The position numbers and the translations under genes are program-made. Shown here one piece after another: positions 637 through 17,554 of a DNA stretch of 64,000 bases (position 1 is the stretch's first letter; the number at the start of each line of letters is the position of its first letter). The stretch spans positions 248,001 through 312,000 of the forward strand of contig NZ_CP045809.1 of the NCBI RefSeq assembly GCF_025273675.1, written 5' to 3'. The notes under the pieces were generated by a model. The model was not told where the DNA came from and did no database searches. It saw only the letters and a list, made by a program, of their open reading frames with translations. Source of the DNA: Gordonia pseudamarae. GTDB lineage: Bacteria; Actinomycetota; Actinomycetes; Mycobacteriales; Mycobacteriaceae.

Positions 637-1473
637 TCAGGCGGTGGCGGTGCGCTGGTTTTGGGTGCGGGCGTGGTGGTCGCGTAGCCGGTAGGAGTCG
701 CCGTCGAGTTTGAGCACGACTGAGCGGTGCAGCAGGCGGTCGAGCATGGCTGCGGCGACGGTGGTGTCGCCGAGTACCTCGCCCCATTCGGCGACGGACC
801 GGTTGGTGGTGATCACGACCGATGTTTTCAGATAGCGTTGTGCCACAACCTGAAACGGTGCTGATGCGGCTTCGGCCGGCAGCGGCAGGTAGCCGAGCTC
901 GTCAATCACCAGAAGAGTGGGTCCAGCGAAGAATCGCATGCAGGTGGACCAGCGGCCCTCGATGGCCGCTTTGTGACACCGTGCGGCCAGATCGGCCGCG
1001 GTGGTGACGTAGGTGCGATACCCGGCGTGTACCGCGGCATGCGCGAGCCCGACCGCGAGGTGGGTCTTGCCAGTGCCGGGCGGGCCGATGAGCAGCACAT
1101 TCGTGGCCGACTCGAGGTAGGCGCAGGTCCCGAGTTCCCGGATCAGTGCCCGATCGACTCCGGGTGCGGCGTCGTAGTCGAAGCCGTCCAGGGTGGCCGG
1201 GGTGGGTAGGCAGGCAAATCGCAGCCGCCCGGCCAGTCGGCGGGCTTCTGTAGCGTCGACCTCGATCGAGAGGAGATGTTCGAGTGTGTGGGCCATCGAC
1301 CACTCCTGTTCGCCGGCGGTTGCCAAGACCTGCGGCAGGGCTTCGGCCGCGGCGTCGAGTTTGAGGACGGCGAGATGTCCGCGTAGTTGCTGATAGACCG
1401 AGATCGCTGATTGTGACTGTGGCTGAACACTATTCGAAGAGTCCGGTCCGGTCTTGTTGGTGTGGGTGGTCAT
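637..1473 (-). CDS. istB: IS21 transposition helper ATPase IstB
   Basis: This 278-residue AAA+ ATPase of the DnaC/IstB type assembles on target DNA and recruits the IstA transposase. Walker A GPPGTGKT lies at residues 130-137, Walker B TLLVIDELG at about 186-194, and the sensor stretch VVITTNRSVAEW is further on. The N-terminus carries a polar extension before the usual start of homology at about residue 25. Its start overlaps the end of istA by four bases, which indicates translational coupling. The stop codon coincides with the end of the adjacent IS3 element, so the natural C-terminus may have been altered. Confidence 0.95.
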   Translation of the reverse strand: MTTHTNKTGPDSSNSVQPQSQSAISVYQQLRGHLAVLKLDAAAEALPQVLATAGEQEWSMAHTLEHLLSIEVDATEARRLAGRLRFACLPTPATLDGFDYDAAPGVDRALIRELGTCAYLESATNVLLIGPPGTGKTHLAVGLAHAAVHAGYRTYVTTAADLAARCHKAAIEGRWSTCMRFFAGPTLLVIDELGYLPLPAEAASAPFQVVAQRYLKTSVVITTNRSVAEWGEVLGDTTVAAAMLDRLLHRSVVLKLDGDSYRLRDHHARTQNQRTATA

Positions 1474-2813
1474 GGGAGGTGGGTCCTGTTCTGTGCGGCG
1501 CGTTCGTAGACGCTCATGTCGATCACCGACGCCTGCGTGGCAACATCAACGTTGGTGGTGGATGTGTTGCGGCGCAGCGCGTCTGCTGCGTCACGGGCGG
1601 CCTGACCGGGTGGGATGCGTTCTTTGCGGCGATGTGGCCGCCGGCTGCTGGAGGCGCCGGCCTTGGCCAGGGTGTCGAGTGCGACGAGGTGCCCGTGATC
1701 ACGCACCTGTGCTCCCGACCCCGCAGCAGCCAGTCGGTGACGGGCGATCACGATGCCCGAAACGGTGGCGATATCGATGTGCCCGTCGCCGAGGCGCTCA
1801 CTCACACTGACCTCACTCATCGCCACCTCCGGCGGCACCGAGTACTGGTTGCCTCGCCACGCCACCAGCGCCTGACCAGACACCGTGCGCACTTCGGTGA
1901 CCGTAGCCGGATACGGCGCAGCTGGCGGGGCGCTCGGCGGTTCGCGTTTGGCCACGGTGATCACACTCACCCGACCGTCAGAGGTGGGGCGCATCCGCAC
2001 ATCCGAGCGGGTGCGGCAGAACGTATCGCAGCTGGTTTGCGCTTGCTCGGCAGTGACCTCATCGGGCAGGGTTCGCCACCACCGTTGCGCGGCAGTGTGA
2101 TTGGACTTCTCCACCACTCCCTTGCGGTTACCGCGACGCGGCGGGCACACCTGCACTGATACCCCGTAGTGTTTGGCGACGCCGGCGAACTCGGCGGTCA
2201 ACGCACCGGTCGAGGGGTGGCACACCGTGGCCATCCGGTCAAAGCGCCACGACTTGGTGACCCCACCGAGTCGGCGGGTGATGCGGTCGATACCGGCGAT
2301 CACCTGTGGTCGGGTCATATCCGGGGCCAGATAGCCTCGCCATTTGCCGGAATGCGCCAACGACCCGACGAGTAGATATGCTGTTGAACCCCAACCCCAT
2401 TCGGCTGGCGGGTTCGGCAGCTCAACCCAATCCCATTGCGTCTCTTCACCTGGCTGGTGCTCGATGATCGCGTTTGCCCGTTCGGTGACCTGGGCACAGT
2501 CGGCACACCTCGGGCGCAGACCGCGCTGACGGATCTGGCGGGTCAGCGTCTGGTAGGACTGGGTGTAGCCGAGATTCTCGAGTTCGTCGCACAGCGTGCG
2601 CGACCACAGATGCGGATCCTCGCCAAGCCTGGCCGTCGCATAGGCCACGAACGGCTCGGTCTCCGGCTTCTTTCGTTCGCCCGGGGTGCGCTCACCGTTG
2701 AGATAGGCCCGGATCGTCTTGCGGTCGTGGCCGGTGTGACGGGCGATCGCCGAGATCGTCCACCCCCGTTTGTGCAGTACATGTACTTCCACATCGTTCT
2801 CCCATGTCAACAT
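1470..2813 (-). CDS. istA: IS21 transposase IstA
   Basis: This 447-residue transposase has an N-terminal helix-turn-helix (residues about 15-40, WTISAIARHTGHDRKTI) and an RNase-H-fold DDE core. Likely catalytic residues are D128 in QWDWVEL, D192 in RFDRMATV and E235 in KGVVEKSNH. A Cys pair (CADCAQV) follows the helix-turn-helix region. Length and motif spacing are normal for IS21. It is encoded immediately upstream of istB. Confidence 0.94.
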   Translation of the reverse strand: MLTWENDVEVHVLHKRGWTISAIARHTGHDRKTIRAYLNGERTPGERKKPETEPFVAYATARLGEDPHLWSRTLCDELENLGYTQSYQTLTRQIRQRGLRPRCADCAQVTERANAIIEHQPGEETQWDWVELPNPPAEWGWGSTAYLLVGSLAHSGKWRGYLAPDMTRPQVIAGIDRITRRLGGVTKSWRFDRMATVCHPSTGALTAEFAGVAKHYGVSVQVCPPRRGNRKGVVEKSNHTAAQRWWRTLPDEVTAEQAQTSCDTFCRTRSDVRMRPTSDGRVSVITVAKREPPSAPPAAPYPATVTEVRTVSGQALVAWRGNQYSVPPEVAMSEVSVSERLGDGHIDIATVSGIVIARHRLAAAGSGAQVRDHGHLVALDTLAKAGASSSRRPHRRKERIPPGQAARDAADALRRNTSTTNVDVATQASVIDMSVYERAAQNRTHLP

Positions 2814-2900
2814 GAAAGCGGGCCTCCCGAGGTAGCTGGTGAGTGGTCAGAGACCATCAGCATCACGGGAGGCCCGCCTACTCTGGCGGAGCCACACGGG

Positions 2901-2941
2901 TGGGGAATCTAGATGAGCATCACTGGGGAATTTCGATGAGC
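2901..2941. repeat. IS21 terminal direct repeats
   Basis: Two 18-bp units, TGGGGAATCTAGATGAGC (2901-2918) and TGGGGAATTTCGATGAGC (2924-2941), differ at two positions and sit 23 bp apart just inside the element end. IS21 elements carry such multiple terminal repeats as IstA binding sites. Confidence 0.75.
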
Positions 2942-2950
2942 GCCGTCACA

Positions 2951-3413
2951 GCAACGACACCCGGGTATGTTCGTCAACCATGGACGCGATCTTCACCTTC
3001 TTCCCATCGACGGTGGAATCGAACTGAAAGTCCTACGCCCACACCACCTTAGGTGCGTCCGCAGTGATGATCGGGACCGATGACTGGCCGGCACATTTGC
3101 GGCGCGGCGCGCGGCGGACTTGCAGTCCTTCCTCCTTCCACAGGCGGTGCACCTTCTTCTTGTTGATCTCGATGCCGTCGTCGAACCGCAGGTGTGCCCA
3201 CGCCCGCCGGAACCCGTGCCGCGGGTTTTTGCGGGCATAGGTGCGCAACTGCTCGCGCAGTGCGGCGTCGGGATCGGCCGGCGTATGTGCTTGCGGCAGC
3301 CGACGATAGACGGATCGGGACAGCCCAACTACCCTGCACGCCATGCGTTCTGAAACGCTCTTGACCTCTTTGAGCATGTCGATGGCGGCACGTTTGGCAG
3401 TCGGGCTCACCAT
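2951..3413 (-). pseudogene. IS3 transposase OrfB remnant
   Basis: The first 126 codons (start 3413, MVSPTAKRAAIDML) match the N-terminal half of IS3/IS407-type OrfB, including SERMACRVVGLSRSVYRR and the HGFRRAWAHLR helix. The frame meets a TAG at 3033-3035 where the family has a tyrosine (VWA-stop-DFQFDSTVDGKKV). Homology then continues to DEHTRVSLL and stops at the IS21 junction. So it carries a nonsense change and has lost the rest of the catalytic core. Confidence 0.88.
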
Positions 3414-3414
3414 T
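3406..3414. repeat. 9-bp target site duplication, left copy
   Basis: CTCACCATT directly flanks the IS256-family element; the identical copy is at 4850-4858. Lengths of 8-9 bp are normal for this family. Confidence 0.9.
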
Positions 3415-4849
3415 GGTCAAGTCCCGCGTAGTGGTGTAGCTGATTGTGGTCCTTCGTAGGTGGTCAGACAGGTAGTTGGATCAGCGGGTCGGTGTTCACC
3501 TCCGGCGTGTGGTCGGTGTCGGTGACGGTCAGCCGGCAGCGGCTGAGCACTTCGAGGCCGAGGTAGCGGCGGCCTTCGGCCCATTCGTCGGTCTGCTCGG
3601 CGAGCACTGCGCCAATGAGACGGACGATGGCATCGCGGTTCGGGAAGATGCCTACGACGTCGGTGCGGCGCCGGATCTCGCGGTTGAGTCGTTCTGTGGG
3701 GTTGTTGGACCAGATCTGGCGCCACACGTCATCAGGAAACGCGGCGAATGCCAGCAGGTCTTCACGGGCGTCACCGAGGTGTTCGGCCACTTCGGGTAGG
3801 CGGTCTTCGGTGTATTCGAGCAGCCGGTCGAACTGGGCATTGACCGCACCAGCAGTGGGTTGGTCATAGACGCTGTGCAGCATGGCCTTGACCGCTGGCC
3901 ACATCGACTTCGGACACACCGCCATCAGATTCGCCGCGTAATGGGTGCGGCAGCGTTGCCAGGCAGCTCCGGGCAGGTTCGCCGCGATCGCCTCGACCAA
4001 CCCGGCATGGGCATCAGAAGTCACCAGGCGAACTCCGCCCAGGCCGCGGGCGACCAGGTCAGCGAAGAAGGTGTTCCACGAGGCTGTGGTCTCACTGGTG
4101 GCGACCTGCATGCCAAGCACCTCACGATGACCGTCACCATTGACTCCGGTAGCCAGCAGCACGACGGCTTTGACGACCTGCTTGTTCTCGCGGACCTTGA
4201 TCGTCAACGCATCCGCGGTGACGAACGTGAACGGTCCCGCCTCGTCCAGTCGGCGATGACGGAACGCTGCAACCTGTTCGTCGAGGTCTTCGGCCATGCG
4301 CGAGACCTGCGACTTCGACAACGAATCGATGCCCAAAGTCTTGACCAGCTTGTCCATCCGGCGGGTCGAGACCCCGGCCAGGTAGCAGTCGGCCACGACG
4401 GTGATCAGCGCCGACTCGGCGCGCTTGCGGCGTTCGAGCAACCACTCGGGAAAATAGGTGCCAGAGCGCAGCTTCGGCACGGCGACGTCGATCGTGCCCA
4501 CACGGGTATCGAGAGGCCGGTGCCGGTATCCGTTCCGGTGATTGATGCGGTCTTCGGACCGGCGGCCCCACTCGGCGCCGCACACAGCGTCGGCATCGGC
4601 GGAGAGCAGTGCGTTGATCATCGTCTGCAGCAGCTCACGCATCAGATCGGGCGAGGCCTCAGCCAGGGCTTGGCCAAGCAAGCCAGCAGGGTCGACAATG
4701 TGGGGTGCGGTCATCGTGATGACTCCGTTCGAGGATTCTGTGGAAGGTTGACTCGAAGGATCACACGGTGACCGCTTCCCTGCCCGACAGCTACACGCTG
4801 CCGGCCACGGTCCTGGTCACCGAGTTACACCACTCTATGGGGCACTACT
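3415..4849 (-). mobile_element. IS256-family insertion sequence, complete
   Basis: This 1435-bp element lies between two copies of CTCACCATT. Its ends share an imperfect inverted repeat whose best-conserved core is AGTGGTGTA: plus strand at about 3430-3438, minus strand at about 4834-4826. It carries a single full-length transposase. The perfect target duplication and open transposase suggest a fairly recent insertion, into the orfA/orfB junction of the older IS3 copy. Confidence 0.92.
3464..4714 (-). CDS. IS256-family (mutator type) transposase
   Basis: This 416-residue DDE transposase is full length. Likely catalytic residues are D168 in TADALTIKVREN, D234 in VTSDAHAGLVEA and E341 in NNPTERLNREIRRR. 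The conserved WQRCRTHYAANL box of mutator-like transposases is at 252-263. It makes the element copy or cut through a circular intermediate in known relatives. No frameshift or internal stop is present. Confidence 0.96.
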   Translation of the reverse strand: MTAPHIVDPAGLLGQALAEASPDLMRELLQTMINALLSADADAVCGAEWGRRSEDRINHRNGYRHRPLDTRVGTIDVAVPKLRSGTYFPEWLLERRKRAESALITVVADCYLAGVSTRRMDKLVKTLGIDSLSKSQVSRMAEDLDEQVAAFRHRRLDEAGPFTFVTADALTIKVRENKQVVKAVVLLATGVNGDGHREVLGMQVATSETTASWNTFFADLVARGLGGVRLVTSDAHAGLVEAIAANLPGAAWQRCRTHYAANLMAVCPKSMWPAVKAMLHSVYDQPTAGAVNAQFDRLLEYTEDRLPEVAEHLGDAREDLLAFAAFPDDVWRQIWSNNPTERLNREIRRRTDVVGIFPNRDAIVRLIGAVLAEQTDEWAEGRRYLGLEVLSRCRLTVTDTDHTPEVNTDPLIQLPV

Positions 4850-5218: not shown

Positions 5219-5413
5219 GGCTACATCGAGCGAGTAAAATCGGTGCAGATTGAGAAGATGCATGGAAAGGGGTTGGCTTTCGCATTGCGTGCGCAGAGCC
5301 TGAAGAACGGCGTCTACAACGATTTCAAGGGGTTTTGTGAACTCGTCGGTTTAGACAACCGACTTGCGGGTTCAGGCGCGCCTCGATCTCAGATCTTTGG
5401 TGCATCGAACTGA
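5219..5413 (+). pseudogene. 3' remnant of an unidentified gene cut by the IS3 insertion
   Basis: Just outside the IS3 end a plus-strand frame is open for 64 codons and stops at 5411-5413. It reads GYIERVKSVQIEKMHGKG, then a helical stretch with LKNGVYNDFKGFCELVGLDN. Composition and polarity look like a real protein C-terminus, but I do not recognise the family. It has no start before the IS boundary, and its last 25 bases overlap the convergent DUF262 gene. It could be part of the same defence region or an unrelated target gene. Confidence 0.5.
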
Positions 5414-7731
5414 GACAGGCGATCACGTGCCCTCTGGATGTCGTCCTCGGGGAGTAGCTCGGAGAAGCGCGGGCTGACCACCAGAGACTCGACGGTGAGG
5501 TCGAGGCGGCCCTTCTCCCATAGCACCGAGAAGCCGTCGGTGACCGTCGGTTTCTGCAGGATCTGATGCGCCGCGGCAACCCCACCCAATTCCGCTATCA
5601 TCGCACGGAGCTGGGTGGGGTTGTAGCGGACTTCTTTACGGCTGCGTTCACAGATGCCGATCATCGCCTCGGTGAACTCAAACTCAAGAGGATCGCCCTG
5701 ACCGGAGGCCCGGTCGACCGCCGCGACATCGCCAGGCTCACCGTCAGGATCGGGATCGGGAGCGCGGTGTCGTCCATCCCGCTCGACGTACAGCTCAACA
5801 GTGTGTTCGTCTTGTCCCCGGTTGAGATCCTTCTGCCCGAAATCGCGGAGAGAGTCGATGGAGGTGAAGACCTTGTACCCGAGCGCCGCGAGACGAGGCA
5901 GATCGGCATCCTCTGGATCGAGTTCGAGCACCAGTGGTTCACCGATACCGGGCTGCAGTCCATCGGGCCAGTACGCCTCGGCAACCGCCAGCGGGACGCC
6001 GGTGTCGGGGTCGTTGATCTCCGTGTCGGTGAGAGGCTTCGAGGCGCCGAGGTCGGTGAGTTCGGCAATGAGCGCGCGGATCTGACCGGTGCGGGGATCA
6101 TCGAGATCCTCGGTGTCGGAGATCTTGGCGGGCTGGTCACGTCGGGCGATCGGACCGGTATCGGGCAGGGTGCCGTTGAGCAACTCCTTCATGAACTCCT
6201 GAGCCGCGGTGGCCAACAACCGGCGGCGCGCTTTCAGGAATTCAGGGTAACGATCAACCGACCACAGTGTCGGGTCCGTCGGAATCCACTGGGATTCGAG
6301 GACTCCGGGATGATCATCGGCGATCTCCTGCAGGTAGTCGGCAGGTGCCCGCTTGCTGTAGGCGGCTGTGGTGTCGGGGGCAACGAAGCAGAAGTTCGCG
6401 ATCGCGTTCACCTCAGACCGATCGAACTTTCCCCGGAGAAGCGCCTTCGGAAAGATGTGGTGCAGTTCGAGGTGGGTTTCACTGTTGCTGGTGGAGTCTC
6501 GGAGAGTCGCGCCGCTTCGCAGGTCGCGGGTTTCCGCGGTCCGGGTCAGCAGGTACAGCATCGGGTAGAAGCGGGAACCCTGTGTCGACCCGGTGAAATC
6601 CTCGGCCTTGATGGTCAGCGATCCACCGCGCCAGAGACGGAGCTTCTTGATGAGGTTGTCAATGCCGCCCTGCCTGACGTTCTCATAGTCCTTGGCGACC
6701 ATCGACTCGACAGAACCACCGAACCGACCCCAGAGTGCGGCGTTGATGTACCAGTACAGAACCTTGTCCTGTTGGGCCTTGTCGGCGAACGTCCCGCCGT
6801 TCTTCGACAGCAGCAGGTTGATCACGGGTACGGCATACCGGCCCATGAGGACCTTGTCGTGGTCCAGGCCCAGCCGCGCGGCCGCGGTGTCGAGGAAGAG
6901 ATTGATGTTGTCAACGGACCCTTTGAGGCTGGCCCGGAATTCCGGGGCCTTCACCCCTTCCAGGTAGGAGAACTCGGACTTCTGGACTGCGAGCCCGGTG
7001 ATGTTCCGCAGTAGCCAGTCGAGGGTGAAGTTATACCCTTCCTTCGACCAGAGATTCAGGTGGTTCCGCATGGTCTGCCGGGCCTCCGGCCACTCCGCAC
7101 AGATCCTGGCCAACGCGAGGTCGCCACGCGACAGCTTTGTTCCGCCCGAGTTCACCTTGTTGAAGATGTCGACGACCTCGTCGACGCTGATGCTTGGGCG
7201 GGCGACCTTCTCGATGTTGAAATCTTTGTCGCGGATCTGCGTGAGCGCATTCAGGCGTTCAAGGTACATGGATGCCTTCTCGGGTTGGTCCTGGAACTTC
7301 GCGAAGAACGGTCCTAGACCGGAGTTGAAAAGTGCGCTGACATCGACCCAGGTCCGGTCCCCCTTCATCCGAGATGGCTGATAGAAGGCAAACTCCTCGG
7401 AGTCGACGTTGAAGTGGAGACCGAGAAAGGCCTCAGCGTTGCCCTCGAAGAACGGCGGCTGAGTACCGCGTAGCACGCCGTACAGTGAGGTGATGCGTTG
7501 TTGGCCGTCGAGGAGCAGGTTACGGATACCGCCGCCGGCGACACCGCCGCGTACAGACACCCTATCCGCCGCCGTCTCCCACATCAGCAGACTGCCGACA
7601 GGATATCCCCGATACAGGGATCGAAGCAGGCCGCGCACCTGGTCTCGGTTCCACACGTACCCACGCTGGAACTCGGGCAGCAGGACGGTCCCTGCGTCTA
7701 CCTCGTCGAGCAGCGTGGACAGCTTGGTCAT
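5389..7731 (-). CDS. DUF262/HNH (GmrSD-like) nuclease-type protein with long C-terminal extension
   Basis: This 780-residue protein has an N-terminal DUF262 (ParB/GmrS-like) domain with LPEFQRGYVW (18-27), the nucleotide-handling motif DGQQR (75-79) and FNKVNSGGTKLSRGDL (190-205). The HNH/DUF1524 domain has LELHHIFPK (421-429), a conserved ANFCFVAPDT stretch, and SKRAPADYL. GmrSD family proteins cut modified DNA. Residues about 500-780 are extra: an acidic linker, a segment rich in acidic residues ending in DSLRDF, and a C-terminal module (GGVAAAHQILQKPTVTDGF, then a WEKGRLDLTVE stretch) of a kind I recall from other predicted restriction proteins. The start at 7731 has GGAAAGG upstream; 7746 does not. 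It is last in a three-gene cluster and probably the effector. Confidence 0.88.
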   Translation of the reverse strand: MTKLSTLLDEVDAGTVLLPEFQRGYVWNRDQVRGLLRSLYRGYPVGSLLMWETAADRVSVRGGVAGGGIRNLLLDGQQRITSLYGVLRGTQPPFFEGNAEAFLGLHFNVDSEEFAFYQPSRMKGDRTWVDVSALFNSGLGPFFAKFQDQPEKASMYLERLNALTQIRDKDFNIEKVARPSISVDEVVDIFNKVNSGGTKLSRGDLALARICAEWPEARQTMRNHLNLWSKEGYNFTLDWLLRNITGLAVQKSEFSYLEGVKAPEFRASLKGSVDNINLFLDTAAARLGLDHDKVLMGRYAVPVINLLLSKNGGTFADKAQQDKVLYWYINAALWGRFGGSVESMVAKDYENVRQGGIDNLIKKLRLWRGGSLTIKAEDFTGSTQGSRFYPMLYLLTRTAETRDLRSGATLRDSTSNSETHLELHHIFPKALLRGKFDRSEVNAIANFCFVAPDTTAAYSKRAPADYLQEIADDHPGVLESQWIPTDPTLWSVDRYPEFLKARRRLLATAAQEFMKELLNGTLPDTGPIARRDQPAKISDTEDLDDPRTGQIRALIAELTDLGASKPLTDTEINDPDTGVPLAVAEAYWPDGLQPGIGEPLVLELDPEDADLPRLAALGYKVFTSIDSLRDFGQKDLNRGQDEHTVELYVERDGRHRAPDPDPDGEPGDVAAVDRASGQGDPLEFEFTEAMIGICERSRKEVRYNPTQLRAMIAELGGVAAAHQILQKPTVTDGFSVLWEKGRLDLTVESLVVSPRFSELLPEDDIQRARDRLSQFDAPKI

Positions 7732-7794
7732 AGTCAGCCTTTCCATAGAGGATGGTGAGGCCGGCCACAGTCGGCCCTACCTGACCAACCATAG

Positions 7795-10700
7795 TCAGCG
7801 ACGCTTCCATAGGTATTCGAAGTCCCCGAACGCGAGCTTGCGGCGGAAGTTGACGATGTTGTCCTTGACGTCGAGGATCTGGCACTCGGCCTTACCGCCG
7901 TTCTTGACCCCGCGTAGACCACGCCCGATCATCTGTTGGTAGATGTTGGCGCTGTAGACCGGACGGGCGATCACAACCGCCCGCGTAGCAGGGGCGTCGA
8001 AGCCTTGCGACAGGACGCCGTAGTTGGTGATCACTCGGATCTTCTTGTTGCGGAACTCCTCGATGAAGCGCCTGCGGTCTGCCGCCGGGGTCCCCGCGTC
8101 GATCGCCACCGACCGGATCTTCTTGTCGCTGAGCTTGGCGGCCAGGACCTTGGCGTGATCGACTGAGGTGGCAAAGACCAGCACCGGCCAATCCCTGGGC
8201 ATCCCACTGATGTGGTCGATCAGCATTTGATTACGCGAGTCGTCGGCCGCGAGGCGACGCTCAGCACTCTTCGGTAGGACGCCTGTGACACCCATCTTGT
8301 CGAGTTCTGCGAGTTCGTCTTTGGTGAGTTCAAGGTTGGCACCACCCAGCTCGAGATGCTCCACGTGGGAGAGGATTCCCAGCTCTTGGAGACGGCCGAT
8401 CGGATTGTCACCGAGCACGCCCTCATCCAGCCTCCGGTTCCCGAACCGTTTGGCCAGAAGTTCCGTCTTGTTCTCGTCGTTCCTGAATGGTGTTGCTGTG
8501 AGCCCGACCAAGTTCCGGCGCGTCTGTCGGCGGGTGATGCTGAGGCCGAGATGCTCAAGGAGCTTCGTGTACTCGGGCGCAACCGCAACGTGAGCTTCGT
8601 CCACGATCACGAGTGAGGCATTGCGTAACCACTCGTACTCATCGGTGTGGAGGCAGACCGTCAGTTTGGCGTCGGTGGCCACGACGAGATGTGGGCGCCC
8701 CGTCACCGGGGTTGAGGAGTTGTTGGACCACAACCTGTCGACGACCAGATCCTCCACGGGTCCGACATGCTCCCAGACGAACCTCCACGATTGGACGGCC
8801 TGTTCACACAACTCCGTGGTCTGGGCAATCCATAGGATCGGGCCGTCCGGGACGCCGTTCTCACGAATCCACCGGATCACGGCTTCTGCTGCGACTCGGG
8901 TTTTTCCTGCGCCCGTCGGCAGGCTGAGCATTGCCCTCGACGGCAGCGGCTCAGATAGGAAGTCGACGAACCTTCGCGCCACTTCGTCCTGATATGGGTG
9001 GAGGGCAGGGAAATCAACCGGGCCACGGGCCTCTTCGCGTTGCGGTGGTGCGGTTGTGCGGGCGCCCGCGAAAGACTCGGGGAATTTGAGGTCGGCCACG
9101 AATCGGAGTGCTTTCGAGGTGCCGTCAAACTTGGTGGGCGCAGAAGACGGGAATACCGCCCGGATCTCGTTTGTGTACTTGCGAAGTACGGCGTCGTCGT
9201 AGGCGTTGTAGGCGAGTTCGGCGATGCGCTGAGCATCAGGCTCCATCCCGGACTCGTGGGTCTCTGAATCGATGAGTCCTTCGGGCAAGCCGGCACGAAG
9301 CTGGTCGGCGTCGAGCATCATACCCAGCTTAATGGGAGGCGATTGCTCGGCGGCGATCTTGTCGATCTTGTCACGTCGTTTCACATCGGCAAGGAGCTGT
9401 TCGTGGAATCTGAGGAGTTGTTCACACTTGCCGCGCCCCAGCTCGAAGTCCAGCTGCCTATCGACGGTCGCCATCTGATCGAGTGTCGACAGTCCCGCCG
9501 GTATCAGCACGGTGTCACCGTCGACAGCTCCGCTCAATGGCTTGAGTGTTGTGCCAGAAGGTGTTCGGGTGACCTCATCGAGTTCTGAACATTCCTGAAC
9601 AGAGTAGATGCGGATTGCCTGTACCCCTGGTCTTTTGTTGAACGCGGGAAGTTTGTCGGCCAGAGGGAGCGGGTCGCCTGCGGGGACCGCTCGTACCTCC
9701 TTTTCTATCACATCGCCGTAACGGAGCATGCCCCACTCCTCGACCATCACCTTGGCCTGTGGTGCATCGATCTCGTCGGCGACCAGAATTGCCGGCTGTT
9801 GTTGTGCCACGAGCTCGTTGAATTCCGCCTGAGTAATGGCGACAGCGATATCGCGGTCGGGTCGCATCGCCCACTTCGACCCGACCCGGCAGCGAACCTC
9901 CGTTTCTTGGTTGATGAGATCGGCTGCAACACGGATCAATAACGCGTACGACGGCCCTATGAAATCATCATCTTCACTCTTACGGACCCGGTCCAGCAGT
10001 CTCGACCACTCTGTAGAATGAATGTCTTCGACAGTGGAGCGCAATTTCAGCCGCTGGGAAATCTCCGTGGATACCTTCGCGACGGGGAGGAAATCTGAGT
10101 ACTTTGCCAGTTCCGGACTGACTGTGTCTAGAACCCTCATCAGGCCGAGGCTGGTGTCGACGTAGCCGTGCTGCTGGTACAGCCACCGAATGGGAGACAC
10201 GATCTGTGAGCGCGTATTGGCTTGTTTGCCGACTTGGCGAGTCCAATTCACAACCAATCCCTCAACCGGGGTGGCGGAGATAAAGGCAGCTCGACCTTCC
10301 TTGGACAAGGATTTGAACCTGTGGAGCGGGCCGGCTATCGCGCCACCTTGGAGCTCTAACGTCCCCTTCTGGACCCGACGGCTGGTGCCGGATAGTGAAT
10401 CACAATACTGCTTATACATCGCGTCTCGGTACTCTTCAAACCACGTTTGACCATCGACGGGCAGGTAACCAGACTCCGGCCGGTCTTTCAATCCGAGGCT
10501 ACGCAGAATCGACTTGTCGTCGGCGTGGAATTTCATGTCGACGGCAATGTTGGCATCTCGGGAGCCATCGCCAGGTACAACCGGGCCGGGAAACATGCAC
10601 GATGAGATGGGTAAATATTCACCTGCAACAGTTCTCACTTTGATGTCGCTTGCCGGGTTGGCAACCCGATCGGTGATAGCGCGGTACTGACTCGCCCCGC

Positions 10701-12606
10701 CCGACTCTCGGAGCAGATCCCAGAATCGACGCCAATGGTTGCCGGTGTAGTTGCGGAAACCCTGATCGAGGACGCTACGGAATCTTCCGTCGGCGTCGGC
10801 CTCACGGATTCCTAATGAATCGAGCGTGTGAGCCATTGCGGCGTCATCGGTGATCGCGTCGTCCAGGTACACAAGGTCATCACGTAGCTCGTCGTCGGTG
10901 GTCCGCCGGAAAATATTACCGGGGGCCGGGGCGACCATCCGGCCCTTATCGGTCAGTGCGATACGGGCCGACTTGGCCTCGTCGATCGCCTTGGGATTGC
11001 CTGCCAGGTCGTGCTCGATCAGCTGTTGAAGGACACCGAGTGCAGCCTTGGAGGCCTCGGGCGTACCGTCGGCTGCCAGTGCTTCGAGCCAGGCAACCAC
11101 TGATTCCGGACCCCGACCGGGGACCTGCTCCAGGATGTGGTTCAGTTTTCCTCGCCGATTACGGTCAGAGCTGACCGAGTGGTGAACCCAATCCTTTGGT
11201 CTATCAGTGTACTCGGCCCAGAGTTTGAGTGTCGCGAAACTGACTTCGACAGGTGGAATTTTTAGATCGGCCGGGCGCTGCAGATTTCCGTCCTGATTGG
11301 GAATCGAAGGACTGACGGCCGCCAGACGCCAGATGTTTCGTGTCAGGTACAGACACGCCCAGTTCGGGGATTCTGATTCACGCGGTCGTCCAGGTAAGAG
11401 TGTGAGGTATGCGGCAGGATCCTCGGCGACAACCAATTCAGGAAGGGAATCAATAACCAACTGGGAAGTGACGTCCAACAGTTCATCGTTGAGAGCGGCG
11501 CCTTCGAGCAGGTTCTGCCGGTCTTCGTTTGTCTTCCACGCAGCGTTCACGACACCGCTCAGTGTGGTGGCGTACTTTGTGGGGAAGTACGCCCAGAACT
11601 CTCCCCGCTCGGTTGATACCTGTCGGATTTGCTTATCTCCGGTGGGATCAACCCGATAATCGGGAACTGCCCAGGAAACCTCAAGTATAGCGCGGTCGTG
11701 GAGTTCGCCGGCATGAGCCCGAACCTCATCGGGAACGGTGTGCTCGACACTGAAAACCCGGTAACGGTCGAAGGCGTCCTTGCTGCCACTGGTTGAAGTA
11801 TGGACAATTGTCAGTGGCGACATTTCGCTGACCCGCATGGTACGACGAAACGCCGGGAGGCTGCGCTGGTCCTCCAGTACGATTGTGCCTACGTGAGGCG
11901 AGAACAGTTGGAACAGTGAAGGGAACTCATCAACGTGTGCTGTGTTACGGACAGCTTTACGGTTGATGTTTCCCGCGAGGTTTTTGGCTGCTCCTGGGAT
12001 GAGCGGGAGACGAACCACCGTCGACGCCCAGTTCAACAGTGAGTCCAGTATCTGGTCCTGTCGTCGTTCCGCGACCATGTCGAGCTCACGTGCCAGTCGA
12101 AGCACCGGTGTATCGGTTACATCAATCGGCGAGCGGCCTCGGCTTCCCGTACCACCGGCGACTGCTTTGCGGATCAGGTCTGCCGACCAGTCGGCGTCGA
12201 ATCCGAAGGAGCCGGACGTACTGAAGAACTGGGGGGTATGGCACACGGAAAGTACCGACTTCACGCCGACACCGAACCGCCCGATCTGTCCACCACGCTT
12301 GCGAGACACCCCCATTCTCAGGATGGTGTCCGCACCCTCTGGGGCGATCGGATTGCCCTCGTTGGCGCAATACAGGTGAGTGTCGGTCAGAATGACTTCG
12401 ATACGTCCACCACGGTAGGGTTCATCGCGCAACTCGTCGGCTGCGTTCTGGACCAATTCGAACAGTTGGCGGTCACCGTATCCGCCCTGGTGGATACGTA
12501 TCTCACTGTTTGCGTCCTCCTCGACGCGGGCCGGGTTGAGGGCGTATGTCTTCAGGGCGAGTTCGGTCAGGTCGGCAACAATCGCATTGACGGTCTGCTT
12601 GCTCAT
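7795..12606 (-). CDS. HSP90/sacsin-like ATPase fused to SF2 helicase
   Basis: This 1603-residue protein has a GHKL ATPase domain at the N-terminus: N-box ELVQNAADEL (50-59), a degenerate second box CANEGNPI (80-87) and G2 box GRFGVGVKSVLSV (109-121). That pattern is typical of sacsin-type HSP90-like ATPases. About 1,000 residues of mixed, unassigned sequence follow. The C-terminal third is an SF2 helicase: Q-like region HPYQDEVARRF, Walker A SLPTGAGKT (about 1225-1233), VDEAH (about 1332-1336), GLTATPFR, and motif VI YQQMIGRGLRG (about 1550-1560). No nuclease motif is visible. The start at 12606 has GGAGGG seven bases upstream. It sits 63 bases upstream of the DUF262 gene and 108 bases downstream of the methylase, so cotranscription is likely. 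Confidence 0.88.
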   Translation of the reverse strand: MSKQTVNAIVADLTELALKTYALNPARVEEDANSEIRIHQGGYGDRQLFELVQNAADELRDEPYRGGRIEVILTDTHLYCANEGNPIAPEGADTILRMGVSRKRGGQIGRFGVGVKSVLSVCHTPQFFSTSGSFGFDADWSADLIRKAVAGGTGSRGRSPIDVTDTPVLRLARELDMVAERRQDQILDSLLNWASTVVRLPLIPGAAKNLAGNINRKAVRNTAHVDEFPSLFQLFSPHVGTIVLEDQRSLPAFRRTMRVSEMSPLTIVHTSTSGSKDAFDRYRVFSVEHTVPDEVRAHAGELHDRAILEVSWAVPDYRVDPTGDKQIRQVSTERGEFWAYFPTKYATTLSGVVNAAWKTNEDRQNLLEGAALNDELLDVTSQLVIDSLPELVVAEDPAAYLTLLPGRPRESESPNWACLYLTRNIWRLAAVSPSIPNQDGNLQRPADLKIPPVEVSFATLKLWAEYTDRPKDWVHHSVSSDRNRRGKLNHILEQVPGRGPESVVAWLEALAADGTPEASKAALGVLQQLIEHDLAGNPKAIDEAKSARIALTDKGRMVAPAPGNIFRRTTDDELRDDLVYLDDAITDDAAMAHTLDSLGIREADADGRFRSVLDQGFRNYTGNHWRRFWDLLRESGGASQYRAITDRVANPASDIKVRTVAGEYLPISSCMFPGPVVPGDGSRDANIAVDMKFHADDKSILRSLGLKDRPESGYLPVDGQTWFEEYRDAMYKQYCDSLSGTSRRVQKGTLELQGGAIAGPLHRFKSLSKEGRAAFISATPVEGLVVNWTRQVGKQANTRSQIVSPIRWLYQQHGYVDTSLGLMRVLDTVSPELAKYSDFLPVAKVSTEISQRLKLRSTVEDIHSTEWSRLLDRVRKSEDDDFIGPSYALLIRVAADLINQETEVRCRVGSKWAMRPDRDIAVAITQAEFNELVAQQQPAILVADEIDAPQAKVMVEEWGMLRYGDVIEKEVRAVPAGDPLPLADKLPAFNKRPGVQAIRIYSVQECSELDEVTRTPSGTTLKPLSGAVDGDTVLIPAGLSTLDQMATVDRQLDFELGRGKCEQLLRFHEQLLADVKRRDKIDKIAAEQSPPIKLGMMLDADQLRAGLPEGLIDSETHESGMEPDAQRIAELAYNAYDDAVLRKYTNEIRAVFPSSAPTKFDGTSKALRFVADLKFPESFAGARTTAPPQREEARGPVDFPALHPYQDEVARRFVDFLSEPLPSRAMLSLPTGAGKTRVAAEAVIRWIRENGVPDGPILWIAQTTELCEQAVQSWRFVWEHVGPVEDLVVDRLWSNNSSTPVTGRPHLVVATDAKLTVCLHTDEYEWLRNASLVIVDEAHVAVAPEYTKLLEHLGLSITRRQTRRNLVGLTATPFRNDENKTELLAKRFGNRRLDEGVLGDNPIGRLQELGILSHVEHLELGGANLELTKDELAELDKMGVTGVLPKSAERRLAADDSRNQMLIDHISGMPRDWPVLVFATSVDHAKVLAAKLSDKKIRSVAIDAGTPAADRRRFIEEFRNKKIRVITNYGVLSQGFDAPATRAVVIARPVYSANIYQQMIGRGLRGVKNGGKAECQILDVKDNIVNFRRKLAFGDFEYLWKRR

Positions 12607-12714
12607 CCGCATACCCTCCATAGGGCTCCCGGCCGTGCGTTACGTACCGCAAGGCCTGCACAGTCGTGGTTACCTGATCACAATCTCATGTGGGTGTGAC
12701 ACGGTGCCCAGCGG

Positions 12715-13809
12715 CTACATCAGACGACCGTGGGACTCGGTCCAGGGAAGCTTGACGACGGCATCGAGCCGGGCCGCGTCGACGGGTATTCCCAGCGCGG
12801 CCGACAGCACGTACACGCCCAGCCTGGGGGGTATGGCATTGCCGATCTGCTGCCCGATATCGACGCCTGACCAGGGGAAATCGTGGGGAAAGGTCTGGAG
12901 AACCCCGGCTTCCTGATTACTGAAACGGGGGAGATGGTTCCCATCGGCATCGAGGATGCGGTTGCGGCGCACCTTTCCCGTGATCGTCGCGGAGGGCTGG
13001 CATGAAGCCCGCTCGCCGCGTCGCTTCGGGTTGCCGCCAGAACCATAGTTCGAGACCACTCTGAATGTCTTTGGACGTTGTGTCCCGGGCATCGCAGCAA
13101 GTGCTTGGCCCATGCTCACCCAGCGCTGCTGGTCGAGGGTGTCCTTGGAATGCTGGCCTCGGTAGTGTCGGGCATGAGTTGTGCCAGGAAGCTCGGGCTG
13201 AATCTCCTTGTTGGCAAGTAGGATTGCCCGTCGTCGAGATTGCGGCACGCCGTACTGCTCGGTGGCGAGAACGCCGGATATGGTTTTGTATTCCATATCC
13301 TGAAGCACCTGCTCCATCGCTTCCCAGACGGGAAGGACGGCCGGCACCTGTTCTAGGACGACAACGTCGTACGCCTTCTCCGCTTCCTGTGCCTCAATTG
13401 CCCAGCGCAGTGGCTCGAGGACCAGCCCGGTGCGTTCATCGGTCAGGGTGTTCAGGTCGTCAGATATGTCCTCACGGGCACCCAGTCGTTTGACGAAGGT
13501 CAGGACCTCGGCAAGTGCCTCGCGGCCTGATCCGGTGCCTGCGACCGTATAGGTCTGGCATGGGGGTCCTCCGGCGAGGATCGACGCACCCTCGAATCGT
13601 GAGGGCCCGAGCTCGCGAACATCGCCGGGCTCCGTCGCGATGCGGGCGGCTTTACGAGTCGCGAGGGCGCCCCTGTCCCACTCGACGCCGATCGCCGAGA
13701 TCCCCAGCCAGTGCGCAGCAACGTCGAGCCCGCCGGGACCTGCGAAAAGATCGACCATTTGATACGCAGGGTCAGGTCCGACGGCCCGGACGTCCGGAGT
13801 GGAACGCAT
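12715..13809 (-). CDS. DNA (cytosine-5) methyltransferase
   Basis: This protein of about 364 residues has the C5 methylase motif order: I (VDLFAGPGGLD), IV with catalytic Cys (GGPPCQTYTVAG), VI (LEQVPAVLPVW), VIII (YGVPQSRRRAILLA), IX (CQPSATITGK) and X (GQQIGNAIPPRLG). Motif VI reads EQV instead of the usual ENV, a known but uncommon variation. The target-recognition region between VIII and IX is fairly short (about 70 residues). A GTG start at 13830 is possible. It heads the three-gene minus-strand cluster and would mark host DNA so that the downstream helicase and HNH proteins spare it. Confidence 0.93.
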   Translation of the reverse strand: MRSTPDVRAVGPDPAYQMVDLFAGPGGLDVAAHWLGISAIGVEWDRGALATRKAARIATEPGDVRELGPSRFEGASILAGGPPCQTYTVAGTGSGREALAEVLTFVKRLGAREDISDDLNTLTDERTGLVLEPLRWAIEAQEAEKAYDVVVLEQVPAVLPVWEAMEQVLQDMEYKTISGVLATEQYGVPQSRRRAILLANKEIQPELPGTTHARHYRGQHSKDTLDQQRWVSMGQALAAMPGTQRPKTFRVVSNYGSGGNPKRRGERASCQPSATITGKVRRNRILDADGNHLPRFSNQEAGVLQTFPHDFPWSGVDIGQQIGNAIPPRLGVYVLSAALGIPVDAARLDAVVKLPWTESHGRLM

Positions 13810-13941
13810 GTGCGACGACTCTACCGGCACGGGGCCTTGAGCGGAACTCAGCGGAGTGGCCTCCCGGAAAACACCAGGAGTGACGCTGTGTCGACCGTCC
13901 GACTACTGGTCAGGTACCGGATGTCGACGTACGGTTCTTGA

Positions 13942-15229: not shown

Positions 15230-17554
15230 TCACTTTTCGCAGGTCTGTTCACCGGACTCCTCGTCACCCCCTCGGCAGTCCGCCTCGACCATCTCCTCTC
15301 CATTTTCAGATGTGGCTTTCTGGCCGTCCGTGTAGAACGTATTCCATTGGGTTGCATAGGGAACACCGTTGTCTGTGACTTTGCTGACCGCGCGTATCAG
15401 CATGTTCCTGGATTCATGGTCCTTCAGTGCCTTGTCCCAACTCAACTCGTTGCCATCAAAGATCGAGGGAAACGTCGTTCTGAGCCATTCTGTCCCGGCT
15501 TGTTCTGAGTATCCTTTGAGGATAGCGAATTTGAACGCATACGGATCGGAGAGGGAGGCCAACTTCTTGGGATCGGTGGACTCACCGGTGGCGTCGTCTT
15601 GGGTGGGTTCGTGCCCGAGTACCCAATCGGTGACCGGTTGCTGTAGCAGCGGCTCGAGCACGGCCGTCGCCGGGAACAGCCAGCCCGCATCCTTGACCAC
15701 GGAGTAGATGAGCTTCTGCTGGTTGTACTCCTCCTTTTGTTCGTCATACATCGTTGCTATTGCTCTCGCGCTGCCGTCGGTCATCGCCTGGTTCAGCATT
15801 CCCGCCCGCTCTGCCAACGGGGCATCCGGGTTGATCCCGTACTGATATGCCATCAGGTTCTGCCACTTGGCGGCCTCGACGTTCATGATTTTGGCGGCTT
15901 CCGGATCGGTATTCAGTGACTGGAACACTCGTTTGAGTTCGTCGGAGTTCAGGTACTGCACACCGTGATCCGGAATGCCGGCCAAGCCCTCTGCGCCCAC
16001 GTAACTGCCCAGGTACGGGTGAACCGCGTTCGCGAAGATCCGGGCCAGCCCAGGGGTGTTGATCCCGAGCTTCTTGTTGGTGTCGAGGTACTCCTCCGAA
16101 CCGAGGTAGCTTCCCAGCGAGGTGGCCGCGTCGCGGGTCAGGGTTTTGGTGAAGGGATTTGTGGTGCCGGCGTCATCGCCTATCCAGCTGAACATCTGGT
16201 TCAGGCCGCCGAGATGATCGCCCCAGCGATGCTCGCTCAGTCCCGCCAGATGGTCGTTCGCGTTGTAGCGTCCGCCGTTGTCACAGGTGACGTCCATGTT
16301 CTTGCCGGTGATGAAGTCACGTGCGGCGATCTTGTCCTCGCCGGCGATCGTCAGCGTGTCGGACATGAACTCGTTGAGCTCGTCGGGCGCCATCTGCAGA
16401 CCGTTGCCCATCGCGTGGCCGGTCGTCTTGGTGGCCCGACTGATCTCGGAGACCTGCTTGGCCAGGCCTCGGTTGATGTCCGAACCCTGTATGTTCTTGT
16501 CGCCCGCGCCGATGAAGGTGGACAGATTCCGGAACCCATCCAGCCTGTCGATCACGGTGACGCGGTGATGGGTCCCGTTCTCGTCGTGATATGTACCGCT
16601 CGTCTTGGTTGTCAGATTCGACGTCAGCAGACTTCGGATTTCCGTCGGCACTTGTGCCATACCGCCGTGATCGCCCGATGCGGTGCGCAGACCCGGACAT
16701 CCCATCAACTCGACGGCGGTGGCCAGGTTGGTCCGGGTCGCCGGGCCTTGACCGTCGCTGAGCGCGAGGATCTCCTTCATCGTCAGGCCGTCCATGTCAC
16801 GGTTGATCTCCCGGAGGAAGTCGAATTCGGCCTGCGAGATGGCGGTCGGTCGGCCGACATTCAGCCCGGCTGTCGTCCGGGGGTCGAGGTCGGTGGTGGC
16901 GGCGGCGAGCACGCGCCGCTCGAAATCGGTCAGCGGTTCACCCTTGACGAGCTTGTCGCCGATTCGGTCTCCGATGCCGCCGCCGATCGCCGATGACACG
17001 GGAGTCAATCTTTCCAGGGCCGCGCTGTGGGTGGTGATCGCATCCGCGCACGTGGTGTCCTGATCGGCGAGTGTTTGGGCCAGCGCTCGGAGCTGAGCCG
17101 TCTCGGTCTCGGCGATCTGGGCGCGTCGCTTCATCGTCGCGGTGACACTCGTGGACTCCTCCGCGTCCCCGGAGCCCTCACCTTCGGCTTGGGAGTAGTC
17201 CTCACCATCGGTGACCTGCCAGTGATCGCTGACGACAAACTTCTGCTGTTCACAGCAGAGCGCCCGCAATATCAACGAGTTGGCGGTCCCCGACATGCAG
17301 ATCATTCCCGACGAGACGGCTTCCGAGAGATCTTCCAGTTCGATGGCCGCCCGCCGAAACTCGTAGTACTCGTCTTCGGCCCGGAGTTCGGCGGCGTTGG
17401 CCCCCTGGCCATCCCAGTCGAGCCCTGCGATCGTGGTCTGGATTCGTTCGCCGTCAGATTTGATCTGAGCACCGAGATCGAAGATCCGCTGCGCGGCCGT
17501 CGCCAGGAGCTCGAACCGGAACGCATTCACCTGGGTGCGTGTTGGAACAGCCAT
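15230..17554 (-). CDS. Large WXG-like, ESX-associated-type protein
   Basis: This 774-residue, mostly helical protein has no signal peptide. The N-terminal 90 residues form a helical hairpin around WDGQGANAAEL (a W-x-G turn), as in type VII secretion substrates. A cysteine-containing central helix, then a long soluble region with TSNLTTKTSGTYHDENGTH and a Gly/Asp-rich segment (GGRYNANDHLAGLSEHRWGD) follow. This architecture resembles the mycobacterial/Rhodococcus proteins annotated as TPR-repeat-region-containing, near Rv0025/Rv0026-type loci. It overlaps the upstream small gene by one base (TGATG), so the two are translated together. No ESX core genes are in the window. Confidence 0.65.
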   Translation of the reverse strand: MAVPTRTQVNAFRFELLATAAQRIFDLGAQIKSDGERIQTTIAGLDWDGQGANAAELRAEDEYYEFRRAAIELEDLSEAVSSGMICMSGTANSLILRALCCEQQKFVVSDHWQVTDGEDYSQAEGEGSGDAEESTSVTATMKRRAQIAETETAQLRALAQTLADQDTTCADAITTHSAALERLTPVSSAIGGGIGDRIGDKLVKGEPLTDFERRVLAAATTDLDPRTTAGLNVGRPTAISQAEFDFLREINRDMDGLTMKEILALSDGQGPATRTNLATAVELMGCPGLRTASGDHGGMAQVPTEIRSLLTSNLTTKTSGTYHDENGTHHRVTVIDRLDGFRNLSTFIGAGDKNIQGSDINRGLAKQVSEISRATKTTGHAMGNGLQMAPDELNEFMSDTLTIAGEDKIAARDFITGKNMDVTCDNGGRYNANDHLAGLSEHRWGDHLGGLNQMFSWIGDDAGTTNPFTKTLTRDAATSLGSYLGSEEYLDTNKKLGINTPGLARIFANAVHPYLGSYVGAEGLAGIPDHGVQYLNSDELKRVFQSLNTDPEAAKIMNVEAAKWQNLMAYQYGINPDAPLAERAGMLNQAMTDGSARAIATMYDEQKEEYNQQKLIYSVVKDAGWLFPATAVLEPLLQQPVTDWVLGHEPTQDDATGESTDPKKLASLSDPYAFKFAILKGYSEQAGTEWLRTTFPSIFDGNELSWDKALKDHESRNMLIRAVSKVTDNGVPYATQWNTFYTDGQKATSENGEEMVEADCRGGDEESGEQTCEK

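Follow-up and report, generated by a model that had tools for sequence, protein, structure and literature searches.

Which defence system do three adjacent genes for a C5 methylase, a GHKL-coupled helicase and a DUF262-HNH protein belong to? The genes lie on the minus strand of a 64,000-nucleotide stretch of the Gordonia pseudamarae genome (contig NZ_CP045809.1, positions 248,001 to 312,000; hereafter the window), and the original prediction took them for a self-contained new system, with a helicase that senses or loads on unmodified DNA and an HNH protein as its nuclease. Comparison with relatives leads us to a different answer. The trio probably forms one arm, the right-hand one, of a defence island that is related to DISARM and centred on DrmAB, with UvrD-DrmA-DrmB as the other arm. 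Judged from the sequences, the GHKL-coupled helicase is best read as an unrecognised part of a DISARM-related system, and the DUF262-HNH gene as an embedded type IV-like gene. The three genes of the window are as follows.

12715..13830, minus strand: C5-cytosine DNA methyltransferase, 371 amino acids (aa), GTG start (Pfam, PADLOC, motifs)
7795..12621, minus strand: GHKL (sacsin/HSP90-like), middle region and RadD-like SF2 helicase, 1608 aa (Pfam, NCBIfam, alignment)
5389..7746, minus strand: DUF262-HNH protein (BrxU/GmrSD-type), 785 aa

All three open reading frames (ORFs) are present on the minus strand, as described earlier. The methylase start placed at 13809 is an ATG seven codons inside the GTG-initiated ORF (12715-13830), and the 1603 aa given for the large protein count from an ATG at residue 6, the first ATG giving 1608 aa. 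The intergenic gaps are only 93 and 48 bp, which makes co-transcription of the trio plausible.

Conserved partners of the GHKL-helicase

In species genomes, a pattern scan returned 169 confirmed relatives of the GHKL-helicase, and the best 80 of these, mostly from Streptomyces, were fetched as loci, each with up to 10 kb of flanking sequence, less where a contig ended. In locus L003, an ORF listing combined with PADLOC and Pfam scans identifies the genes after the GHKL-helicase as a UvrD-like helicase, DrmA and DrmB, the DrmB homologue containing an MZB domain. At E 1e-10, UvrD is found in 78 of the 80 loci, DrmA in 78 and DrmB in 77, and the order GHKL-helicase, UvrD, DrmA, DrmB is kept on one strand in 76. 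Of the remaining four, L007 and L022 reach the end of their contigs, and L009 and L078 are arranged differently. Furthermore, at least one C5 methylase is present in 75 of the loci at the same threshold, and the methylase of the window itself finds a match in 69, four of them weak (<70 bits), at a median of 4.8 kb upstream of the GHKL-helicase.

The GHKL-helicase nearly always accompanies DrmA-DrmB in the actinobacteria examined. Specifically, 401 genomes were drawn evenly from the larger family, and at a limit of E<=1e-100 the GHKL-helicase is found in 25 and DrmA in 39; every one of the 25 GHKL-bearing genomes carries DrmA (Fisher p 4e-30, shared ancestry ignored). The GHKL gene, the UvrD slot, DrmA and DrmB are contiguous on one strand in 21 of the 25, although the UvrD slot of four of these (G211, G161, G155 and G269) holds a 510-512-aa ORF without a match to the UvrD queries. 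The four exceptions are the Gordonia genome of the window (G000), G001, G063 and G268, in which 9-29 kb separate DrmA from the GHKL gene on the same contig. A C5 methylase (>=49% identity) occurs in 21 of the 25 stretches examined; none was found in the examined stretches of G265, G259, G161 and G269.

These loci support the earlier claims of a defence island and of a C5 methylase near a conserved GHKL/SF2 fusion. They do not support the trio as the system, since it is UvrD, DrmA and DrmB that accompany the GHKL-helicase as its conserved partners.

A divergent set of three genes, M33A (with an HTH domain), a 370-aa protein without a Pfam match and M33C (DUF6339), lies between the methylase and the GHKL-helicase at 5726-9944 of L003. 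M33A and M33C are each found in 73 of the 80 loci, with the set in the same place in most of these, and in G161 and G269 the set stands directly behind DrmB. PADLOC PDC-M33 models match these neighbours of the GHKL-helicase, so parts of the GHKL loci are already on a candidate list. PDC in these model names presumably means candidate.

The assignments of the large protein as a sacsin-like GHKL plus SF2 helicase and of the modification enzyme as a C5 methylase both held. The large protein divides as follows.

12226..12474, minus strand: GHKL/sacsin-type ATP-binding domain, residues 50-132 (NCBIfam NF047352, 64.3 bits, cut-off 50)
9007..11364, minus strand: middle region, residues 420-1205 (predicted fold)
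7855..9003, minus strand: SF2 helicase core, residues 1207-1589, motifs intact (NCBIfam RadD model, 113.7 bits against a cut-off of 720)

In Pfam, the protein matches ResIII, DEAD and Helicase_C at 51-62 bits, its sacsin match there being below threshold. Residues of the GHKL N, G1 and G2 boxes (E55, N59, D62, G89, G114, G117 and G119) are conserved in 90-91 of 92 alignment rows, and Walker A, DEAH and motifs V and VI of the SF2 core are kept in nearly all of the 92. The nearest solved relative of the core by sequence is RadD (E 3e-22, residues 1207-1588), while the middle region has a confident predicted fold without a close solved match and with weak echoes of HSP90/TRAP1 middle domains. The methylase matches Pfam DNA_methylase at 84 bits and PADLOC MTase_II PDLC03374 at 273 bits, and its motifs I, IV (PCQ), VI, VIII and X are largely conserved over 81 rows. 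Motif VI reads EQV rather than ENV, with Q in 79 of the 81 rows, and is thus family-wide. Both alignments include the window sequence, and three loci are present in duplicate because they were fetched more than once.

The second arm and the history of the island

Where, then, are DrmA and DrmB in the Gordonia genome? A search with a DrmA model gives a match at C1:242322-244646 (C1, contig numbering), left of the window start at 248001, and the following features are found there.

C1:239633-241486, plus strand: UvrD-like helicase
C1:241488-244670 (L117:13488-16670), plus strand: DrmA, its end 3.3 kb short of the window (PADLOC PDLC02575, 811 bits)
C1:244667-246436 (L117:16667-18436), plus strand: DrmB, after DrmA (PADLOC PDLC02583, 238 bits)
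C1:246475-246690: ArmA-start remnant of 72 codons, after DrmB (sequence identity to ArmA)

Relative to the window edge, the UvrD-DrmA-DrmB arm occupies the region 1.6-8.4 kb to the left; it is encoded on the strand opposite to the trio and was missed earlier because it lies outside the window. All operon parts therefore exist in the Gordonia genome, as two convergent arms. DrmA and DrmB match PADLOC models strongly, and the claim that the set has no match in DISARM is not supported. The same convergent layout is seen in G001, whose proteins are 54% (UvrD), 68% (DrmA), 64% (DrmB), 65% (GHKL) and 61% (methylase) identical to those of the window genome. By inference, G001 is Gordonia aichiensis, and G163, considered below, is Rhodococcus coprophilus.

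The zone between the arms retains a trace of a further operon. Names of ARMADA genes follow PMC12458937, and ORFs were assigned here by PADLOC class and domain order. Over 65-66 residues, the ArmA remnant shares 71-75% identity with the genes that directly follow DrmB in G008, G192 and G215, and the identity is 63% in G129; beyond the remnant come a weak integrase-type match and then a pile-up of insertion sequence (IS) elements. An ARMADA type II set follows DrmB in G001, G008, G192 and G215, with ArmB and the later UvrD in two frames in G192, and between 208 and 312 kb of the Gordonia genome the operon (ArmA-ArmD) is absent except for the ArmA-start remnant. Because that remnant of an ARMADA helicase stands right after DrmB, loss of an ARMADA operon at the IS pile-up is probable. 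In the same four relatives (L219-L224, L209 and L121), UvrD-DrmA-DrmB, ARMADA type II, a further UvrD and a head-on DUF262 gene follow one another, the DUF262 gene of G001 carrying a RAMA domain.

Transposase genes adjoin the trio in the pile-up between the arms, where a short HTH_21 (transposase-type) frame accompanies them within 637-4714.

637..2813, minus strand: IS21-type istB and istA (Pfam, NCBIfam)
3464..4714, minus strand: IS256-family transposase (NCBIfam transpos_IS256, 339.6 bits)

Beside the methylase end of the island, at window positions 15230-17554, stands a gene for an EspA-like TPR_23 protein (153 bits; a type VII secretion-related family).

Such a setting raises the question of whether the locus is a decaying island, with ARMADA lost, IS elements inserted, the DUF262-HNH protein degenerate and the remaining genes no longer expressed or functional. 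The shrinkage of ArmA to 72 codons, next to which lies a weak integrase-type match, and the loss of an Asn from the HNH motif (see below) are in line with decay. However, the frames of the methylase, GHKL-helicase, UvrD, DrmA and DrmB are open over the full family length, and the motifs of the methylase and the GHKL-helicase are intact; we regard general decay as quite improbable.

The history of the two arms was examined with quick trees, which were made without bootstrap and gave long-branch warnings; states were set by hand for 89 scored rows, L007, L022 and L078 being left unscored. In the GHKL tree, G000, G001, G063 and G268 form one clade (99% support in the Shimodaira-Hasegawa-like approximate likelihood-ratio test) inside the operon-bearing Nocardiaceae, and the unhitching of the GHKL gene from UvrD-DrmA-DrmB amounts to one change of state among the scored rows.

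DISARM consists of the SF2 helicase DrmA, the DUF1998/MZB protein DrmB, a methylase (DrmMI or DrmMII) and the PLD nuclease DrmC. The island resembles it in its DrmA and DrmB matches and in the accompanying C5 methylase, and differs in adding a GHKL-SF2 helicase and a UvrD-like helicase. Several observations weigh against joining the two arms into one DISARM-related system. In the window genome, IS elements and a distance of 7 kb (9.4 kb between DrmB and the GHKL gene) separate the arms, which are also encoded on different strands, so that their joint action there is inferred from relatives. DrmA of the window genome groups with that of G129, G294 and G268 (100%), apart from that of those operon-bearing Nocardiaceae whose GHKL-helicase is closest; its lineage thus differs from the one that usually accompanies this GHKL clade, which argues that parts have been reassorted. 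The GHKL gene is in pieces in G097 and in L062, and 14 of the 39 DrmA-bearing genomes (11 of these 14 were fetched) are without the GHKL-helicase at E<=1e-100, which shows that some DrmAB pairs of this type do without it. The methylase scores 55 bits at best against DrmMII models, compared with 273 bits for MTase_II PDLC03374. Finally, PLDc_2 has five matches in the genome, none of them near 239-262 kb and the best beside a second DrmAB locus (3.66 Mb). Since DrmC was not found near the locus and the methylase is only weakly DrmMII-like, we do not class the island as a DISARM member, although its core is predicted to work like DISARM.

The second DrmA-DrmB pair, at C1:3655818-3661570 (L118 9818-15570), has a PLD nuclease match just after it (C1:3661866) and forms a canonical-looking DISARM locus. 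A DrmC-like query from this locus gives no match at 1e-5 in our sets of 80, 12, 14 and 11 loci.

Taken together, the GHKL and DrmA trees indicate that a methylase-GHKL piece and a UvrD-DrmA-DrmB piece have recombined. Alternatively, methylase and GHKL-helicase could by now be a stand-alone two-gene module in Gordonia and Rhodococcoides, with UvrD-DrmA-DrmB a separate DISARM-like system in the same island. The unhitched clade and the other lineage of DrmA fit such a separation, as do the islands of G008, G192, G215, G179, G190 and G319, which carry UvrD-DrmA-DrmB with ARMADA genes and without GHKL. Nevertheless, all four unhitched genomes retain UvrD-DrmA-DrmB in the same island, and no GHKL-bearing genome lacks DrmA (0 of 25), which makes separation unlikely. 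We prefer to read the two arms as parts of one DrmAB-centred island.

The DUF262-HNH gene

What, in that case, is the DUF262-HNH protein? Its identification as a GmrSD-like HNH protein stands, with two recognisable regions.

7102..7719, minus strand: GmrSD_N/DUF262 domain, residues 10-215, DGQQR motif intact (Pfam GmrSD_N, 93 bits)
6331..6471, minus strand: HNH/DUF1524-like motif, residues 426-472 (alignment, predicted structure)

PF07510 is not among the Pfam matches of the window proteins. In a family search, 6557 of 8000 scored candidates passed, and the 119 relatives aligned are the best listed of these 6557. The DGQQR motif (D80-R84) is conserved in 119-120 of 120 rows. In the HNH region, His429, His430 and Asn451 are kept, while residue 460 is Thr, against Asn in 116 of the 119 aligned relatives. 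Positions 451 and 460 are nine residues apart, the Asn spacing also seen in the HNH domain of Cas9. The same spacing separates N169 and N178 of GmrD, which are called crucial in PMC4619093. The window copy, which has the longest end branch of 43 tree rows, may thus no longer cut. All exceptions at position 460, namely P0005 (Thr), P0007 and P0010 (Val) and the window protein, fall within one clade of seven; counting against a loss of cutting, P0006, P0008 and P0009 of the same clade retain Asn.

The predicted structure has a mean pLDDT (predicted local distance difference test) of 69.6 with a poor N-terminal part; in the HNH stretch, the value is 65 for residues 421-430 and then 83-94 up to residue 480. 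As a fold, the model matches BrxU first (E 1e-9), with SspE and DndI next. The protein resembles BrxU/GmrSD, SspE and DndI in its N-terminal DUF262 domain with DGQQR, its HNH-type region, its domain order and its predicted fold. It differs from them in the loss of the second HNH Asn and in about 200 additional C-terminal residues, an extension common to its actinobacterial relatives.

Its usual neighbours are not those of the GHKL-helicase. There are 17 places outside the Gordonia genome where the family was located, of which 9 were fetched (L184-L192), the other 8 having 50-55% identity. In all 9, the gene lies directly behind a different UvrD helicase, of 696-707 aa in seven loci, ended by a contig edge in L190 and present as a 355-aa frame in L192. 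This UvrD (about 700 aa) and the DUF262-HNH protein are a candidate type IV-like module by themselves. No close copy of that UvrD was found in the Gordonia genome, which encodes a further DUF262 protein at C1:3491881-3492423 (687-aa frame, L002).

The arrangement of the trio on one strand with short gaps accords with the original scheme of a complete three-gene restriction system, with the helicase as sensor of unmodified DNA and the HNH protein as cutter. There are also three cases in which close homologues of the GHKL-helicase and of DUF262-HNH occur on equal-sized contigs (186107, 52753 and 306507 bp) and may be linked, and the GHKL genes of G163 and G201 each have a DUF262-HNH homologue, split over two frames, at a distance of about 13 kb. 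Against this, no DUF262-HNH homologue is found in any of the 80 GHKL loci with their flanks of up to 10 kb (E 1e-8 and 1e-10). Co-location in other genomes, the condition set with the original prediction, thus fails in part for the three genes. Among the 401 genomes, GHKL (25) and DUF262-HNH (17, E<=1e-200) share only 3 (p 0.08), and in the two shared genomes other than that of the window they are on different contigs. With the second HNH Asn replaced, and the family residing beside another UvrD, a role of the HNH protein as the cutter is not supported, and such a three-gene system is very improbable.

Rather, the DUF262-HNH gene is probably an embedded accessory gene of the island. A DUF262-family gene stands opposite the DrmAB strand in the window genome and in all five fetched relatives with DrmA >=64% identical (G001, G008, G192, G215 and G170; a sixth, G316, was not fetched), so that the DUF262 slot is recurrent while the subfamily in it differs. 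In less similar islands of the same DrmA lineage, no DUF262 gene was found in the fetched stretches of G129, G294, G063, G268, G179, G190, G319, G183, G322, G335, G402 and the second G265 copy. In another DrmA lineage, G163 and G201 (L149 and L151) carry their DUF262-HNH homologue about 6 kb past DrmB. These two homologues are broken into their two frames at different points.

Known systems and a proposed mechanism

Three further systems share features with the island. ARMADA type II shares an island with DrmAB in several relatives and has left the ArmA remnant in the window genome; its genes in relatives resemble a BrxHII/DrmD-like helicase, a large IIG/DrmMI-like methylase, a YprA helicase with MZB and a UvrD with an N-terminal part of about 280 aa. 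It differs in its one-piece YprA helicase and PglX-like methylase, and the words HSP90, GHKL and cytosine do not occur in the main text of its description (PMC12458937). The catch-words helicase, m5C methylase and ATPase describe the Hma system as well (PMC8565338); among the best 25 PADLOC matches listed for the GHKL-helicase and the methylase (P0002 and P0003), there is no Hma model. The GHKL N-terminal region also matches the PADLOC model TmtA at 121 bits over residues 7-458. The best model is matched only over positions 5-417 of 1538, its first quarter, and the SF2 half of the protein is uncovered. TmtA we take to denote Tiamat.

How might the island work? The two arms would converge on a cargo zone, probably once occupied by an ARMADA operon and now by IS elements. 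In Serratia DISARM, DrmAB binds DNA with 5' overhangs, and unmethylated DNA stimulates its ATPase more strongly than 5-methylcytosine DNA does (PMC9142583). By analogy, the C5 methylase would mark self DNA, and DrmAB would load on unmethylated incoming DNA with 5'-ended single strands. The GHKL domain may then act as an ATP-closed clamp or gate that couples the RadD-like motor to the DrmAB complex, with UvrD helping to unwind as a co-helicase. Replication would be blocked, and the DNA destroyed by a nuclease unrecognised in the core or recruited to it. Druantia III of M. smegmatis is a YprA-type system reported to block phage DNA circularisation, whose authors report no canonical nuclease domain (PMC13316683); another preprint calls DruE a helicase-nuclease (PMC13192584). 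The DUF262-HNH protein would sense modification as a module of its own, in the way that BrxU accompanies BREX, and this copy may no longer cut. One study (PMC11411939) equates HEC-05 with BrxU and states that GmrSD-like enzymes lying within other restriction loci extend defence to modified phages.

More tentatively, the locus could represent an unnamed, widespread actinobacterial class of DISARM without DrmC, in which a GHKL-gated SF2 helicase and UvrD replace it on DrmAB-bound DNA. In Gordonia, this class would be modular, with swappable cargo (ARMADA, DUF262 enzymes) and one DUF262-HNH protein turned into a non-cutting modification sensor. We consider this possible but rather doubtful.

No description of a GHKL partner of DrmA was found in the literature searched, a search outside which the founding DISARM paper falls. 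The destroying step of DISARM is unsettled, DrmC being reported as non-essential (PMC9142583). The GHKL-helicase, a conserved DrmAB companion in which an HSP90/MutL-type ATP switch is coupled to a helicase, in an operon with no recognised nuclease, is where that step might first be sought. If the reading proposed here is true, a known defence family gains a further component. The island also shows that DrmAB, ARMADA and GmrSD-type enzymes occur together, with interchangeable parts.

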